From Fuerstiella sp. (GTDB taxonomy: Bacteria > Planctomycetota > Planctomycetia > Planctomycetales > Planctomycetaceae), in assembly GCA_022447225.1 (NCBI GenBank), contig JAKVAZ010000009.1:124001-188000 (forward strand): DNA of 64,000 nucleotides, written 5' to 3'. Shown here piece after piece: positions 44,121 to 53,010 of this stretch; position 1 is the stretch's first letter; each line of letters starts with the position of its first letter. The notes under the pieces were generated by a model, which ran no database searches, had not been told where the DNA came from, and was given only the letters and a program-made list of their open reading frames with translations. The translations under genes were made by a program, and so were the position numbers.

Positions 44121-45248
44121 TTATCTCTGGTCTGCAGACGCGGGCTTGAGTGGAACCCCGTCAGGCAGATCCGTCAGCCCCAATTCTGACGTATTCAACG
44201 TCTGCGTCAATGACTGTTTGAACCGAAACTCACGAGACCGTCCCCCGGAAGATACGATGGCCTGTCCTGCCAATGTCAGGTTTTGATCAAGTTGAATCGA
44301 CTTCGGCACCCGGGTCATTTCATCCAGCAGTATTCGCCCCGATCCCGTGAACGCCGATCCGGTCAGCTGAAAATCCTGAAATGTCAGAGGCAGGTCGTCA
44401 TTGAACTGATGCGACACCAGGCCGACCGGCCCCTGCATGGAAAACCGTACTTCCGGTTTTTCGATCGAATCCACAGAACAGACATAATCGCAACGTACGT
44501 TCCCGGGCAGTCCAAGCGACACAACCAGCGTTCTGGTCCACTCGCTGTCCAATGTCAGTCCGGAATCGTCATCGGCCTTTTGCCTCGGTGGATTCTGTGA
44601 GTCGGAACTGGTGGGCGGTTTGCCGACATTTCTTGCGGGAAAAGGTCTGAACGGCGGACGACCGACTGTCACCGGAACACAAAACGGCAGATCAAACCAC
44701 GACCGAAACACAACATCGCTGCAGACCTGCGTGAGCACATGATGCGACGGCCCGGTGTCACGACGAAAAACAGATTCTTCGGCAACCACGTTCACTGCGT
44801 TTCCCTGGTCAGATACCAGCATCAGCACAGCCGGAAACCTGAAAGCCTTAGGTACATCAAGTGATCGAATGCTCTTTTCACCATGTTTGTCGATGGTGGT
44901 CCGGTCCAGTGACTGAATCTGCACCTGCAGCCGGGCTCTGCCGGACCGGTCGTATCCGGACATCTGGTAATGAAGTAAAGCTCGATCTGTGATATCGCTG
45001 TCGGTTGTGTGATCGCCGATACTGATTTCTGTAACCCGATGAGTCGCAACCTCGACGGCAAATTTCTGTCCGTCTGACAACTGCCAAAGGGGGATGGCGT
45101 CCTCTGCCAACAGGCCAGGACAACACACAATCGCCGGCAACATCAGGGTGACCATCAAACGGCCGGCATTCCTGACAACAGGCCGGCAACAAAACCTAAA
45201 CAGCGGGCGGTTAAAAATAACGGGAGCAATCCGGAACGCCGAGCGCAT
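44121..45248 (-). CDS. Exported hypothetical protein coupled to the bifunctional-nuclease gene
   Basis: 375 residues. A hydrophobic stretch near 31-48 (LMVTLMLPAIVCCPGLLA) reads as a signal peptide, so translation may truly begin at Met 32; the upstream ATG overlaps the stop of the bifunctional-nuclease gene as TGATG, which favours the longer form. The mature part is beta-rich: IPLWQLSDGQKFAVEVATHRV, LLHYQMSGYDRSGRARLQVQIQSL, YVCSVDSIEKPEVRFSMQGPVG and FQLTGSAFTGSGRILLDEM, with a proline-rich loop near 205-235. No known domain was recognised, but the profile resembles other secreted planctomycete proteins of unknown function. Confidence 0.72.
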   Translation of the reverse strand: MRSAFRIAPVIFNRPLFRFCCRPVVRNAGRLMVTLMLPAIVCCPGLLAEDAIPLWQLSDGQKFAVEVATHRVTEISIGDHTTDSDITDRALLHYQMSGYDRSGRARLQVQIQSLDRTTIDKHGEKSIRSLDVPKAFRFPAVLMLVSDQGNAVNVVAEESVFRRDTGPSHHVLTQVCSDVVFRSWFDLPFCVPVTVGRPPFRPFPARNVGKPPTSSDSQNPPRQKADDDSGLTLDSEWTRTLVVSLGLPGNVRCDYVCSVDSIEKPEVRFSMQGPVGLVSHQFNDDLPLTFQDFQLTGSAFTGSGRILLDEMTRVPKSIQLDQNLTLAGQAIVSSGGRSREFRFKQSLTQTLNTSELGLTDLPDGVPLKPASADQR

Positions 45249-46624: not shown

Positions 46625-47776
46625 ATGCGAATCGCCCATCTCATCACCCGACTGATCATTGGCGGTGCTCAGGAGAACACACTGTTCAGTGTTGATGATC
46701 AGCACCATCTGCACGGAGACCAGGTATGCCTGATTACCGGTCCGGCAACCGGGCCCGAAGGCACTCTGGCAGACCGTGCCCGCGAGCGACAGCTGGATGT
46801 TCGACTGGTGCCTCAGCTTCACAGGAATCTAAATCCACTGAGTGATCTGCAGGCTTATTTTGCCGTCAGAAAACAACTCCGTGACTACCAACCGGATCTG
46901 GTTCATACGCACAGTTCCAAGGCGGGAATCATCGGGCGTCGGGCCGCATACGACCTGGGAATTCCATGTGTGCACACAATTCATGGCGCTTCCTTTCACT
47001 ACGGCCAGCCACGTATGTTGCACTGGGCCTATCGACGCGCAGAGAATGTGGCTAATGGCTGGTGCCAGCATTTCATCACCGTCTGCGACGCGATGATTCA
47101 GCAATACCTCGATGCAGGTATCGGGACTCGGTCAAAATACACGACAGTCTACAGCGGAATGGATGTTGACCGTTTCCTCAATCCGACTGAATCGAGAGAA
47201 GCAGTTCGAACACGTTTGGGGATTGCCGATGACGACATCGTTATTGTTAAGGTCGCCCGGCTTTTTAATCTGAAAGGCCATGATTATCTGATTGACGCTG
47301 CTTCACAGATTACGGCAGCGATTCCCAAAGTGAAGTTCTTACTTGTTGGTGATGGAATTTTACGGAGCGAATTTGAGTCCCGCATTGCCGCCCTGGGACT
47401 GTCAAATCATTTTGTGTATGCCGGACTGGTACCGCCCGCTGAAGTAACGAACTACATTCACGCGGCGGAACTGGTGGCCCACACCAGCGTCTGGGAGGGC
47501 CTGGCCCGTGTGTTACCACAGGGTCTGATCGCAGGAAAACCAGTGGTCAGTTTCGATATCGACGGCGCCCCCGAAGTCTGCATCGATGAGGAAACCGGAC
47601 TTCTGGTGCCGACACGCGATGTCAAACTTCTCGCGGATGCGATTATCCGCCTTGCCTCAGACGAGCGTCTGAGGCAACGACTTGGGCAAGAAGGCCGCCG
47701 TCGGTTTACCGAACAGTTTCGCCACGAATACATGACAGAGCGGATTCGGGACGTGTACCGCACCATTCTGAATTGA
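46625..47776 (+). CDS. GT4 family glycosyltransferase
   Basis: 383 residues with a GT-B fold. The N-terminal domain begins MRIAHLITRLIIGGAQENTL, a typical GT4 start, and includes PDLVHTHSSKAGIIGRRAA and TIHGASFH; the C-terminal nucleotide-sugar domain has IVKVARLFNLKGHDYLIDAA, FLLVGDGILRSEFESRI, FVYAGLVPPAEVTNYIHAAEL and TSVWEGLARVLPQGLIAGKPVVSFDIDGAPEV, with the EGLxRV motif and Glu of the ExxE region in place. It transfers a sugar from a nucleotide donor, probably in cell-surface polysaccharide synthesis. It stands alone; the next gene is convergent. Confidence 0.93.
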   Translation: MRIAHLITRLIIGGAQENTLFSVDDQHHLHGDQVCLITGPATGPEGTLADRARERQLDVRLVPQLHRNLNPLSDLQAYFAVRKQLRDYQPDLVHTHSSKAGIIGRRAAYDLGIPCVHTIHGASFHYGQPRMLHWAYRRAENVANGWCQHFITVCDAMIQQYLDAGIGTRSKYTTVYSGMDVDRFLNPTESREAVRTRLGIADDDIVIVKVARLFNLKGHDYLIDAASQITAAIPKVKFLLVGDGILRSEFESRIAALGLSNHFVYAGLVPPAEVTNYIHAAELVAHTSVWEGLARVLPQGLIAGKPVVSFDIDGAPEVCIDEETGLLVPTRDVKLLADAIIRLASDERLRQRLGQEGRRRFTEQFRHEYMTERIRDVYRTILN

Positions 47777-47872: not shown

Positions 47873-50800
47873 TCAATTGGTGAAAGTCTGGTCCAGCATC
47901 GCGGGCAGTTCATCGTCCCGCATCAGAGTTTCACCTGGTTCCTCCCGGGACCGCACCAGTGGTTCATGCTTTGCCCGGTGTGCAAGTACCTGCTGTTCAT
48001 AGTCCCGCAGCGGACCAATCAGGGCTTTGGAAACAAACTGTCGGCGAGTCAGAAATCTCTCCCGTTTCTTTCCTGCGACAGCGAAAATTTTCTCCATTTG
48101 CTGCAGAGCGATCTGCGTGACCTGAATCGACAATTCAACGTCACGCTGCATGCGAACAGCGGATGTCGGCTCAAATTCCGTACGAGCCTCCCATCGCAGA
48201 ATCAACTCCTGAACAAGATCATTCAGGTGATCAAACCGTTCCACATCATTGTCCACAATTTCAGGTTGTTCAGTGAGCTGTTTCAGTGCTGCGACCACGT
48301 TCCGAACGGAATAGTCGCCAGGCTGTGTGTAATGGATCGTGTGCAGACGATGCTGAAATTCGACCCGGGGTTCAGGATGTCCTGCCCGTTCATGGATGCT
48401 CACCAGTTCATGATGAACAAAATCCGAGATCAAAGGCTCATAATCCACTGAAAAATCACTGAGACGTTGCAGTTCCGACAGCGACACCGGGCCGGAACGA
48501 ACCTGTTTCAGCACTTCCCCGAGGGTCGTCAGGTAAGCTTTGCGATGCTCATCCAGCGGATGCGGCAGACGGTGCAGTTTACCGTCACGAAACACCTCCA
48601 CTGGTCGTCGCGGATTTCGCTGCATCTCTGATTTCAGTGATTTACGATACACACCTGGTTGATCGGGAAAAGCGGTCAGTATCTCAACCTGCTGAGCATA
48701 AGCACTGATCCTGCGGCGAAATTCTTCGTGAGTCGGCCCCGACGGCACCGCCTGAGCGATTCTCATTTGATGCGGCGCCAGCAATTTGTGAACGTTTCCT
48801 GCATGATTCACCGACTGCACCGTCTCCCAGCCCAGACGCAGACTTAATGACCCGGTGTTGACGGCGGAACCCGGCGAAAGATCATAGTGGTTCCACAGTC
48901 CGATCGGATCGGCGGAATCAACCACAGGTAATGCTGCCAGCTGACACCAATCCCACCCGCAGCGACTCAACTCGCGCTGCACGTGCCTCCGCGACATGCG
49001 CATCAGTACCCCACTGTCCAGCAGAGGAACTGAGGAGTTGCTGCCCAGCAGCGCGATTTCTCCTGGTCCCATCCGCACCATCGCGACATTTTCGAAAACC
49101 TCGGAGACTCTGGCCAGGATCTGCAGGACGCTCTCGCGACCGATATGCTGCTGTCGAATGCGCTGACAAAACACACCATCTGCCGTCAGTCTTTCAGAGA
49201 CAGCCCGAAACCAGCACGTTGACAGACGTGACAATGATGCACTTCTCAAAGGATCTGCCAGAACAGAAATCAACACGTCAACCGGAGCCACCGATGCATC
49301 ACGGATCACAATCTCCGGATCCTTGAACACAATCTCTATTTCGCCGTCTTCCAAAGACTCAACTGCCGTCAACTGACTGTGTGCAGCCGGCGGCCTGACC
49401 ACAGTCACTCGATGCAGGGGAAACTGCCGGCAGGTCCTCAAAGCAACACCCGAATAGTCGCTCATCAGCAGCACGCTGCCAGGACGTTGATGCATTACCA
49501 GCGGCAGGACACACGTCAAAACTTCTGCAACAGGCTGCGGCGTCGTTGAGGTGTTTGTGGAAATTTCACCCACACTGTGACCGTTAACTCTTATTTCCAG
49601 CGCATCCGCACTCTGTTTCCACGTCGTCACCGTTCCTTCCGCTGATTCATAACTGTCAGCCAGTCGGACAGCATCGCTTTCTGAAATCATATCCGCGGGC
49701 ACACCGTGATGAATGGCCGCAATCGGTCTCATAGAGAACAACAGACGCGACGGACCGGTCATCTCCGGTAACAAAGTAAAAATGCCAATCACGGCTGCAG
49801 AAGCGGACAGCACACCAGTTAGCCGGATCAAACCAAAACGATCACTGTTATTAGCAACTCGCCACAGCAACATGACAGGCACGACAGCAATGACGCCGAC
49901 AGCAGTCAATGCCGGCCACACCGGCGAAATCCCCATATGAGAAACCAGCCCGGGAATCGCACTCCCCAGACAAAAGGATACAGGATGAACATTTGATGTC
50001 CGGCACTGCCCACTTTCAAGAAAACGGCAACCGGACATCGCAGCCATCAGAAGCGGCACTGACCAGACGGCAAGCTGAAAACCCTGCCAAAAAACCATTT
50101 CCATACCGGTGGATATCGTCGCGCGGAGATGCAGATTCCAGTTTACGACACCCGTAAAAAACCACGGCAGAATGGCAATGACGACCAAGCTCCCCGCCCA
50201 GACAACCCGTGGACGATATTTGAGCTGCAGCTGTGGTATCATGGCTACCAGCAGCAGGCCGCCCGTGCAGACGATTCCCGCACAAATCGCGATCAGGGAA
50301 ACCGAAAAGACGCGATGTAAAACCAGGATTCCTGCAACAACCCCCGTACCCGCCGCAACATTCATCAGCATCTGCAGGATCCCGAAGTCACTTCTGAAGG
50401 TCCTGATTCCATTCGGCCGAAAATCAGCTGTGTCGCCTGGTCGCCGTACAGCGATTCCAACCACACAGCCGCCCAGCAGTATCACCGAAAATGTAAACGA
50501 CCGGAACAACCAGGCATGAACGGCAAAAAACGTGACTCCTGCGACGCAGCCGATTACACGACGCCGAGTCATTTCCGTGGAACCGAAATCAAAGAGCAGA
50601 CAACACGCGAGGGCACCGGCAGCAGGCAGTGCCGCAACCATCCAGACCGCAAACGGAGACAATCCGAAGCCGGCCCCCAGTCTCAGACAAAACTCAAAGC
50701 ATACGGGCGCAGTCACGACCGTCAGCACACCCGTCACGCCGGCAATGATTGTCTGCAGATTCTGAGCACGAATCCGCCTCCGCAGAAAACGCGAACCGGC

Positions 50801-50968
50801 TACACCCGCAGCGACAGCCACACACAACGCTGTGTTCGACAGAGGCGACGTGCCACAGATCGACACCCACTGGCACAGCAGCGTTAGCAGCAGGAAAGCG
50901 GCCAGTGCCGCTGTCAGCACAGGCTCAGTGAATCTGTTCACCGTCTCAAATCGGTCCCGGGCTTCCAT
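47873..50968 (-). CDS. Large multi-pass membrane protein with degenerate spermidine-synthase-like domain
   Basis: 1031 residues. Residues about 12-420 form some twelve membrane helices. Residues about 490-670 are laid out like an aminopropyltransferase (spermidine synthase) Rossmann domain: VLTCVLPLVMHQRPGSVLLM, HRVTVVRPP, VDVLISVLADP, AVSERLTADGVFCQRI and VFENVAMVRMGPGEIALLGS. Where true enzymes have GGGDGG for the nucleotide part of the substrate it has SDYSGV, so catalysis is doubtful. Residues about 670-1031 are helical and charged, with no known domain. This membrane-plus-synthase fusion resembles large planctomycete and other bacterial proteins whose role is not known. It is transcribed divergently from purU and probably stands alone. 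Confidence 0.7.
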   Translation of the reverse strand: MEARDRFETVNRFTEPVLTAALAAFLLLTLLCQWVSICGTSPLSNTALCVAVAAGVAGSRFLRRRIRAQNLQTIIAGVTGVLTVVTAPVCFEFCLRLGAGFGLSPFAVWMVAALPAAGALACCLLFDFGSTEMTRRRVIGCVAGVTFFAVHAWLFRSFTFSVILLGGCVVGIAVRRPGDTADFRPNGIRTFRSDFGILQMLMNVAAGTGVVAGILVLHRVFSVSLIAICAGIVCTGGLLLVAMIPQLQLKYRPRVVWAGSLVVIAILPWFFTGVVNWNLHLRATISTGMEMVFWQGFQLAVWSVPLLMAAMSGCRFLESGQCRTSNVHPVSFCLGSAIPGLVSHMGISPVWPALTAVGVIAVVPVMLLWRVANNSDRFGLIRLTGVLSASAAVIGIFTLLPEMTGPSRLLFSMRPIAAIHHGVPADMISESDAVRLADSYESAEGTVTTWKQSADALEIRVNGHSVGEISTNTSTTPQPVAEVLTCVLPLVMHQRPGSVLLMSDYSGVALRTCRQFPLHRVTVVRPPAAHSQLTAVESLEDGEIEIVFKDPEIVIRDASVAPVDVLISVLADPLRSASLSRLSTCWFRAVSERLTADGVFCQRIRQQHIGRESVLQILARVSEVFENVAMVRMGPGEIALLGSNSSVPLLDSGVLMRMSRRHVQRELSRCGWDWCQLAALPVVDSADPIGLWNHYDLSPGSAVNTGSLSLRLGWETVQSVNHAGNVHKLLAPHQMRIAQAVPSGPTHEEFRRRISAYAQQVEILTAFPDQPGVYRKSLKSEMQRNPRRPVEVFRDGKLHRLPHPLDEHRKAYLTTLGEVLKQVRSGPVSLSELQRLSDFSVDYEPLISDFVHHELVSIHERAGHPEPRVEFQHRLHTIHYTQPGDYSVRNVVAALKQLTEQPEIVDNDVERFDHLNDLVQELILRWEARTEFEPTSAVRMQRDVELSIQVTQIALQQMEKIFAVAGKKRERFLTRRQFVSKALIGPLRDYEQQVLAHRAKHEPLVRSREEPGETLMRDDELPAMLDQTFTN

Positions 50969-51359: not shown

Positions 51360-52223
51360 GTGCAGATTATCATTACAGCGGTCGGACCGGATAATCGAGG
51401 ACTGGCCGACCCGATCGTCCACTACGTGACGGGAGCCGGAGCCAACATTTATGAAATTCAGATGTACGACCGGGACAGTGAACACCTGTTTGCGATGCTG
51501 CTGCGAATCAACTGGACGAAAAACGATGACAGTATCGACGTCCTGAGAGATCACCTGAGCCAGATTGGGAAACTTCGTGGATTACAGATCCGAGTCTGGA
51601 CCCGCGGCGAGCACCAGACAACGCCGAAAATTGCAATTTGCACGACGTACCGTACCGAGCATCCACTGGCAATCCTGCGAGCCGTCCGTGACGGACAGCT
51701 TTCGGCGGAACCGGCGGTCATGATCGGCAACCGCGATTCCTGCCGCAGTGTAGCAGAACAGTTTGGTGTCCCGTGGCACAACATCGGTGATCCGGACGGC
51801 AACCCGGATTACGGCCGTCTGGAATCACTCGTCGATGAATACAAGATTGACTACATCGTGCTGGCACGGTTCATGAGGGTTTTGCCGGCGGAACTCTGCT
51901 GGAAGTTTGCAGGCGGGAGAATCATCAATCTGCACCACGGACTGCTTCCATCGTTTCCCGGATTTCGTCCGTACGAAGACGCCCACCAGCACCACATGCT
52001 GTGTTATGGAGCGACAGTGCATTTTATCGTTCCCGAACTGGATGCAGGAAACCAGATCATCCATCAAAGTTCGTTTACGGTTTTACCTGGCACGTCACTC
52101 AGTAACATCAAACGCCAGGGCGAATCCGATCATGAACCCAACTGTCTGGTGGAGGGGCTGCGCAGAGTTATCAACGAAGAAGTCGAACTGCACTTTCATC
52201 GTGTCGTCAGGCGGGAGACATAA
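51360..52223 (+). CDS. purU: Formyltetrahydrofolate deformylase
   Basis: 287 residues from a GTG at 51360 with GGAG about 7 bases upstream. An N-terminal ACT-like domain (TAVGPDNRGLADPIVHYVTGAGANI) is followed by a formyl-transferase-type catalytic domain: KIAICTTYRTEHPLAILRAV, VDEYKIDYIVLARFMRVLP, INLHHGLLPSFPGFRPYEDAHQH near 190 and ATVHFIVPELDAGNQI. The Asn/His of NLHHG and the Asp of ELDAG are the family catalytic residues. It hydrolyses 10-formyltetrahydrofolate to formate and tetrahydrofolate, balancing one-carbon pools and feeding formate to purine synthesis. The QIIHQS segment differs from the common IIAQ, but length and order are normal. It is divergent from the large membrane gene. 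Confidence 0.92.
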   Translation: MQIIITAVGPDNRGLADPIVHYVTGAGANIYEIQMYDRDSEHLFAMLLRINWTKNDDSIDVLRDHLSQIGKLRGLQIRVWTRGEHQTTPKIAICTTYRTEHPLAILRAVRDGQLSAEPAVMIGNRDSCRSVAEQFGVPWHNIGDPDGNPDYGRLESLVDEYKIDYIVLARFMRVLPAELCWKFAGGRIINLHHGLLPSFPGFRPYEDAHQHHMLCYGATVHFIVPELDAGNQIIHQSSFTVLPGTSLSNIKRQGESDHEPNCLVEGLRRVINEEVELHFHRVVRRET

Positions 52224-52353: not shown

Positions 52354-53010
52354 TTATCGACCGTTCCCGGTTAACATAGCATCAGCCCGATGCTTAATGA
52401 GTCGACGGCCATGATCAAAGACAGGGTAGGAATCCGGACCCAGAGCGGCCAGTGGAATCCGTCTAAGCACCTGATTGATCCGCATCATCAGACGGTCGTT
52501 GTCTGCGTAGTCATGCAGAAACCTGATCCGACAAAACGCACCAATGAATCGGGCCAGACCGTCAACCGGCCTGGACACTACCAGATTCACCGATTCCTGA
52601 ACCCAGTCCGCATCAACCGACTGCAGGGCGGTGTAGTATCGCGGAAGCAGTTCGGGGTCGCGGCGGGCCAGTTCATTGTCCAGAAGCAATTCCGTCACGA
52701 CATGCCCCAGCAGGCCAGGTCGGTGATCATACGGATCGGGCATCAGTCGGTGAAACCGGCGAACCAGATCTTCGCACACCTCCTGAAATATAATGCTTCG
52801 GTGAAACAGCTCATCATCAGCATGATGCTGCATGATGCCCCGACACAGCCGCAGAAATGCCTGATCACGGCCCTCTTCGATCATCGCACCGACCACACGA
52901 GATCGGGCACGAATCCGGGGGGCTGCCACCCGCAGCCAGTCCGGTACAGCCGTTCCGGCAACGAATAGCGGGTCATCCAGAAAACGATATCCGTGCGCGA
53001 GATAATTCAT
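52354..53010 (-). CDS. AcpH-like (DUF479-type) conserved protein
   Basis: 218 residues beginning MNYLAHGYRFLDDPLFVAGTAVPDWL, an opening very like that of acyl-carrier-protein phosphodiesterase AcpH (DUF479), whose members start with MN(F/Y)LAH. Further His/Asp-rich stretches (IMQHHADDELFHRS, LLGHVVTELLLDNELARR, RFLHDYADNDRLMMRIN) could form a metal site of the HD type. AcpH removes phosphopantetheine from ACP. The match beyond the N-terminus is distant, so the activity is not secure. No signal peptide or membrane helix. Neighbours (purU convergent, epimerase divergent) give no functional link. Confidence 0.7.
   Translation of the reverse strand: MNYLAHGYRFLDDPLFVAGTAVPDWLRVAAPRIRARSRVVGAMIEEGRDQAFLRLCRGIMQHHADDELFHRSIIFQEVCEDLVRRFHRLMPDPYDHRPGLLGHVVTELLLDNELARRDPELLPRYYTALQSVDADWVQESVNLVVSRPVDGLARFIGAFCRIRFLHDYADNDRLMMRINQVLRRIPLAALGPDSYPVFDHGRRLIKHRADAMLTGNGR

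Follow-up and report, generated by a model that had tools for sequence, protein, structure and literature searches.

Does a membrane protein whose spermidine-synthase domain lacks the glycine motif of the enzyme still act on a substrate, or has the fold been put to another use? The question was raised by a gene in a 64,000-nt stretch of a Fuerstiella sp. genome (Planctomycetota, Planctomycetaceae; assembly GCA_022447225.1, contig JAKVAZ010000009.1, positions 124,001 to 188,000; hereafter, the window), which an initial annotation, made from the letters of the DNA, had described as a giant membrane protein with an apparently inactivated spermidine-synthase domain. The gene (47873..50968, minus strand, as are all of its parts given below) was defined from the open reading frame list and the orthologue search; it starts with ATG, contains no inner stop, and encodes 1031 amino acids (aa). 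We hold with moderate confidence that its product is a pseudoenzyme belonging to the core of its lineage, anchored in the membrane and serving as an interaction scaffold in the envelope. What had been observed was real, and its interpretation was supported in part.

An AlphaFold2 model with 34 orthologues as input (mean predicted local distance difference test score, pLDDT, 84.4; predicted template modelling score, pTM, 0.86) showed 13 N-terminal helices. Twelve form a bundle of the major facilitator superfamily (MFS) type (aa 1-372; 49853..50968), which in VIA-align comparisons of the predicted model matched G6PT1 (9ugy; Z 20.8, 342 residues aligned, root-mean-square deviation [rmsd] 4.1) and GlpT (1pw4; Z 19.7). 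The estimate of about twelve helices therefore held for the bundle and omitted helix 13 (aa 377-398; 49775..49840), a hydrophobic helix delimited from the model, hydropathy, and flank and loop charges, which leads into the soluble part. The soluble part consists of a spermidine-synthase (SpeE) fold with N-terminal strands, a Rossmann domain, and C-terminal helices (aa 403-735; 48764..49762), followed by a family-specific helical tail (aa 736-1005; 47954..48763). Because the SpeE fold extends to approximately aa 735, approximately 90 residues of the supposed 360-residue tail belong to it, and the tail proper comprises approximately 270 residues.

In the same VIA-align comparisons, the SpeE fold matched 2e5w_A (Z 21.5, rmsd 2.7, 251 residues aligned), and Foldseek matched the model to spermidine synthases with E 1.3e-7. 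The window protein alone scored 19.5 bits against PF01564, below the Pfam cut-off of 22.9, and 17.7 bits against TIGR00417 (cut-off 249.55); in the genome scan, in which the same frame was scored with its neighbours, PF01564 reached 24.1 bits, over the cut-off. The assignment is not a product of chance because 24 of the 34 aligned orthologues matched PF01564 (E < 0.01), the orthologue profile matched solved spermidine synthases with E 3.7e-19, and the fold was recovered with the Z score given above. Thus, the structure prediction and comparison with spermidine synthases that the initial annotation had proposed recovered both an MFS bundle and a SpeE fold, and the presence of a spermidine-synthase-like domain in a membrane protein was confirmed.

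When the window protein was aligned with SpeE of Escherichia coli and Bacillus subtilis, all of the cofactor and catalytic motifs were altered. The GGGDG loop that binds decarboxylated S-adenosylmethionine (dcSAM) reads SDYSGV (aa 503-508; 49445..49462), exactly as first described. After strand 2, where E. coli SpeE has VEID, the acid that binds the cofactor is replaced by Arg525 (49394..49396), and DDG is replaced by KDP. The E. coli segment DVIISDCTDP corresponds to DVLISVLADP (aa 564-573; 49250..49279), in which SDCTDP has become SVLADP; of the acid pair in SDCTDP, which we take to be catalytic, the first is absent and the second (D572) is kept.

These losses were counted across the family. 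The alignment (A1) included 34 of the 36 matched family genomes (G008, locus L009, and G018, locus L050, were left out), and residues were counted in 32 of the 34 aligned orthologues, the fragments L004 and L030 being without the region. Comparison groups of SpeE controls and of fused MFS/spermidine synthases (MFS_SpdSyn; hereafter, fused relatives) were assigned on the basis of motifs, with NCBIfam matches used as well for seven distinct proteins. Six duplicate or near-duplicate cores were dropped from the tree and the residue counts (L084, L085, L086, L087, L089, and L068), and further rows were dropped as repeats (L061, L062, L069, L071, L077, L090, and L103). The acid of GxG(D/E)G, which aminopropyltransferases need for dcSAM binding according to passages of PMC10349129, was found in none of the 32 orthologues (window included), in all 11 SpeE controls, and in none of the 19 fused relatives. 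The D followed by G or A of the DDG motif, in the nucleotide pocket, was likewise absent from all 32 orthologues but present in 11/11 controls and 19/19 fused relatives. Both catalytic acids were present in 0/32 orthologues, 10/11 controls, and 2/19 fused relatives; one acid of the pair was left in three orthologues and the other in four, the window protein keeping the second only. A complete GxGxG was found in 7/32 orthologues, 9/11 controls, and 15/19 fused relatives. The acid after strand 2 was the most persistent, occurring in 26/32 orthologues (the window protein not among them), 11/11 controls, and 19/19 fused relatives; in the window's genus, represented by three members, the position is R, K, or P. 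The two orthologues outside the count showed the same picture: both are without the dcSAM acid, the D-G/A, and the catalytic pair, and both retain the strand-2 acid.

Because the dcSAM acid, the D-G/A, and the catalytic pair were each absent from all 32 orthologues, it is very unlikely that any member of the orthologous family catalyses aminopropyl transfer. The proposed inactivation as a synthase was thus upheld, but not as a peculiarity of this gene: the motif loss is family-wide, and the GGGDG acid is already missing from the fused relatives. On the residue counts, an active spermidine synthase was rejected. A genuine one working through alternative pocket residues, for which the intact fold of the model would speak, is scarcely credible given the three missing residue sets and given that the same genome encodes, in another gene (L102), a full-length PRK03612-type aminopropyltransferase (629 bits vs. 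a cut-off of 472).

The more serious question is whether some other reaction has survived. Because the strand-2 position is R, K, or P there, binding of S-adenosylmethionine (SAM) is unlikely in the window's genus. The main rival to a pseudoenzyme is an active group-transfer enzyme, a methyltransferase or one of another type, that is fused to the membrane part and has a remodelled pocket, like fungal NHMT, whose SpeE-like domain methylates secreted proteins. We consider this rival unlikely. It is encouraged by the fused relatives, which retain both SAM acids though the dcSAM acid is gone, and by NHMT itself, a membrane-fused SpeE-like protein in which, in passages of PMC10349129, the same acid is replaced (I322) and which is a working methyltransferase. 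Within the family, the strand-2 acid of most orthologues and a near-invariant FCQ agree with such an enzyme, but the nucleotide-pocket D-G/A is lost throughout, complete GxGxG motifs are few, and the strand-2 acid is substituted in the window's genus. In addition, we know of no SAM supply in the periplasm, which would count against this enzyme if the domain faces that side.

The gene is under purifying selection. The ratio of nonsynonymous to synonymous substitution rates (dN/dS; a Nei-Gojobori estimate from one pair, with dS near 1) between the window gene and its 71% identical orthologue (L002) was 0.18 overall, with 0.30 for aa 1-400, 0.17 for aa 401-645, 0.10 for aa 646-735, and 0.08 for aa 736-1005. 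Column information was lowest in the bundle and highest in the tail (bundle, 1.56 bits; SpeE core, 2.11; aa 646-735, 1.99; tail, 2.12). Only the start Met, five Gly, two Pro, and one Leu were conserved at ≥85% in the bundle, with no charged residue among them, vs. 31 such columns in the tail, of which 8 are Arg and 8 Asp/Glu; Y774, R775, R809, L816, E854, R925, and R929 were invariant in 34/34 tails. On these sequence measures, the tail is the most constrained part of the protein and the membrane part the least conserved. A decaying gene or a gene-calling artefact, to which the eroded motifs of the window copy could point, as could the orthologue place in G008 listed with one inner TGA (though its own frame is open for 1134 aa), has a negligible chance of being correct: the frame is intact, orthologues occur in 57/58 genera, and dN/dS and conservation contradict decay.

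The same measures bear on a transport role, which the initial annotation had mentioned and which conservation did not support. In such a transporter, the MFS bundle would move a substrate, for example a polyamine or nucleoside, with the SpeE fold and tail sensing or regulating. The match of the predicted bundle to the MFS fold over 342 residues is in keeping with it, and two of the fused relatives tested matched Pfam MFS_1 (41.4 bits, over the cut-off of 33.4, and 28.9 bits, under it). We nevertheless find it rather improbable, the bundle being the least conserved part and containing no conserved charged column.

The charges of the loops were examined with the N-terminus inside and 13 helices. 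In 26 of the 27 orthologues (of 34 rows) with enough N-terminal sequence to contain the full membrane part, lysine plus arginine (K+R) residues were more frequent in "inside" than in "outside" loops (means 12.7 vs. 4.0). Helix 13 was hydrophobic (median best 19-residue average 1.76; ≥1.3 in 29/32), with 68 K+R before and 35 after it over 31 orthologues. Together with the predicted helices, this suggests that the soluble part would lie on the periplasmic side, outside the cytoplasm.

The tail had been described as having no known domain. By sequence, this held: at E < 0.1, the 34 tails gave 11 Pfam families, each listed for one member and none of them a tetratricopeptide repeat (TPR) family, and the tail profile, searched against PDB sequences, gave only unrelated rows with E 0.61 and above. 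There were weak signs of a TPR-like solenoid. A separate model of the tail (pLDDT 86.8) was helical but for one hairpin, and TPR domains were numerous among its fold neighbours (best Foldseek E 0.07, not significant; VIA Z 8-10, which lies inside the background range stated for helical models). Of the weak tail-profile matches in non-orthologous proteins, the two examined (G002:C21 and G110) were both in TPR-containing proteins; the G002 match falls on TPR repeats, and the G110 match lies just before its TPRs, not on them. A third hint was that 2/6 of the fused relatives tested have C-terminal TPRs, but an hhalign comparison of the tail with those two TPR tails gave no match (probability 0.2%). 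We therefore suspect, and do not assert, a diverged TPR-like solenoid. The G002 protein (L141:7468-13458, plus strand) is a TPR-rich protein of 1996 aa encoded approximately 3.4 kb from a fused MFS/SpeE gene.

Tail-profile searches covered genomes within the phylum. The profile matched 160/170 family genomes, 126/130 good ones, and 57/58 genera, nearly always once per genome (two matches in four genomes; the second matches include G447 and G543). Outside the family it was almost absent: 29/392 genomes of the phylum sample matched, 28 of them in the family, and 84/297 genomes of the class sample, 83 of them in the family. The two outsiders were weak (G110, E 2.7e-4; G570, E 1.4e-4, with three inner stops). 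As the profile searches scored at most 5, 7, or 12 candidates per genome, a very distant copy might escape. Searches with the full protein agreed, with matches in 36/37 family genomes and 1/22 others, that one being a fused relative. Of the named relatives, the nearest was a Fuerstiella sp. bin with 71% identity, followed by Planctomycetaceae S139_18 with 39% and a Gimesia bin with 24%. Thus, the gene is lineage-core in one planctomycete family and almost nowhere else in the phylum samples, which makes it a promising candidate for a cell function specific to this lineage.

In a quick maximum-likelihood tree of 75 cores (rooted at midpoint, without bootstrap, and including 13 further PF01564 proteins, "other," that are not in the three residue tallies), the orthologous family formed one side of a branch with a Shimodaira-Hasegawa approximate likelihood-ratio test (SH-aLRT) value of 100. 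It grouped with the fused relatives at SH-aLRT 92, under the 95 mark, and apart from SpeE (99). The fused relatives (L057, L058, L059, L060, L074, L107, L111, L120, and others) as a class look more like methyltransferases than spermidine synthases because the dcSAM acid is absent from all 19 and the SAM-pocket acids are present in all 19. C-terminal TPRs occurred in 2/6 fused relatives tested, including a paralogue in the window's own genome (L101). On a Lentisphaeria contig (L058:77-6101), two genes for fused MFS/SpeE proteins lie in tandem, and the product of the first has C-terminal TPRs. The aminopropyltransferase of the window's own genome (L102:1807-3330, plus strand; G000:C14) has seven helices by hydropathy, with 10 K+R inside and 2 outside; these charges would place its catalytic domain outside the cytoplasm, which is odd for a dcSAM-using enzyme.

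In the pseudoenzyme and scaffold reading, an ancestral fused MFS/spermidine-synthase protein would have lost its cofactor and catalytic residues, and a C-terminal helical tail would have been gained or remodelled. The MFS bundle would now be chiefly a membrane anchor, helix 13 would place the soluble part on the outer face of the inner membrane, and the SpeE fold would serve as a stiff link and docking platform. The tail, which may be a TPR-like solenoid that has diverged, could use its conserved Arg, Asp, Tyr, and Trp to bind another protein or a negatively charged ligand within the envelope. Several observations weigh against this reading. The strand-2 acid is retained in most orthologues, 15/32 have an acid at the second DDG column (window included, where Pro follows it), and the near-invariant FCQ (C601, 91%; Q602, 94%) and D564 (97%) exceed what an inert spacer needs. 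The survival of the strand-2 acid in most other genera and the near-invariance of D564, C601, and Q602 argue against regarding the whole SpeE fold as inert. Moreover, the sidedness is a prediction from charge bias and model-placed helices, the TPR matches were not significant, and no neighbour names a partner: among genes beside the orthologues, a comparison that the initial annotation had also proposed, no conserved partner gene was found in more than 7 of 41 loci.

The genes that recurred beside the orthologues did so in few loci. IspD and a zinc-ribbon protein were each found in 7/41 loci, both downstream and on the same strand, and a dispersed family was found 1.7-5.3 kb from the gene in 7/41. 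A gene for a sigma-54 activator or regulator lies directly downstream on the opposite strand in 6/41 loci (L036:6325-7986 and five others). A neighbour cluster of 11 loci was discarded as the antisense frame of the gene itself, and a phage link was discarded because PHROGs gave no family at E ≤ 0.1. In the window, the gene is flanked by a family 4 glycosyltransferase (46625-47776; Pfam) and by a protein with ACT and formyltransferase domains (51360-52223, plus strand; PurU-like, 131 bits vs. the PurU cut-off of 286). The latter is a divergent neighbour in the three members of the genus and in 0 of the other 18 loci compared. Two further minus-strand genes, at 44121-45248 and 52354-53010, are 63% and 78% identical in G001 and had no Pfam match over cut-off.

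No study of the orthologous family was found in the literature (open-licence PMC), and the excerpt of PMC11107197 contains no mention of membrane-fused forms. Among known systems, the fused MFS/spermidine synthases of NF037959 are the closest. They share the MFS-like bundle, the last helix followed by a SpeE fold, and, in 2/6 members tested, C-terminal TPRs; they are the nearest tree group, and NF037959 was matched at E < 0.01 by 11/34 orthologues (best E 1.1e-8). Their grouping with the window family (SH-aLRT 92) points to shared ancestry of the SpeE part. They differ in keeping the SAM-pocket acids (19/19 on two counts), no match to the tail profile was found among their frames in the set that was scanned, and NF037959 was not among the matches of the window protein at E ≤ 1 (below the curated score of 40 bits). 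PRK03612-type aminopropyltransferases (NF002956) also have membrane helices before the SpeE domain, and one occurs in the same genome, but it has seven helices by hydropathy and its catalytic residue set is present.

Fungal NHMT (AN4663), a seven-helix histidine methyltransferase of lytic polysaccharide monooxygenases (LPMOs), resembles the window family in combining membrane helices with a SpeE-like domain whose function is not aminopropyl transfer and in which the GxG(D/E)G acid is replaced (passages of PMC10349129). Its seven helices gave low-scoring fold matches only, it keeps the SAM-binding Glu, and those passages describe no such tail; at the SAM-binding acid, the window protein has Arg525, although most orthologues have an acid. 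From this likeness a broader and frankly speculative picture may be drawn, to which we give little weight: fused MFS/SpeE proteins overall would be envelope-facing SAM-fold proteins, namely methyltransferases of exported substrates like NHMT, and the present family would be a branch in which the enzyme was turned into a receptor or assembly factor of the envelope and became one of the core components that define the unusual envelope of its lineage. To our knowledge, planctomycete envelopes are poorly understood.

SpeE itself (PF01564, TIGR00417) has the same fold, and the window family differs from it in lacking the dcSAM acid, the nucleotide-pocket D-G/A, and the catalytic acid pair. Annotation of such a protein as "spermidine synthase" would thus be misleading. 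SpeE, the fused relatives that retain the cofactor acids, and the present family, which has lost most of them, form a series from enzyme to probable pseudoenzyme.

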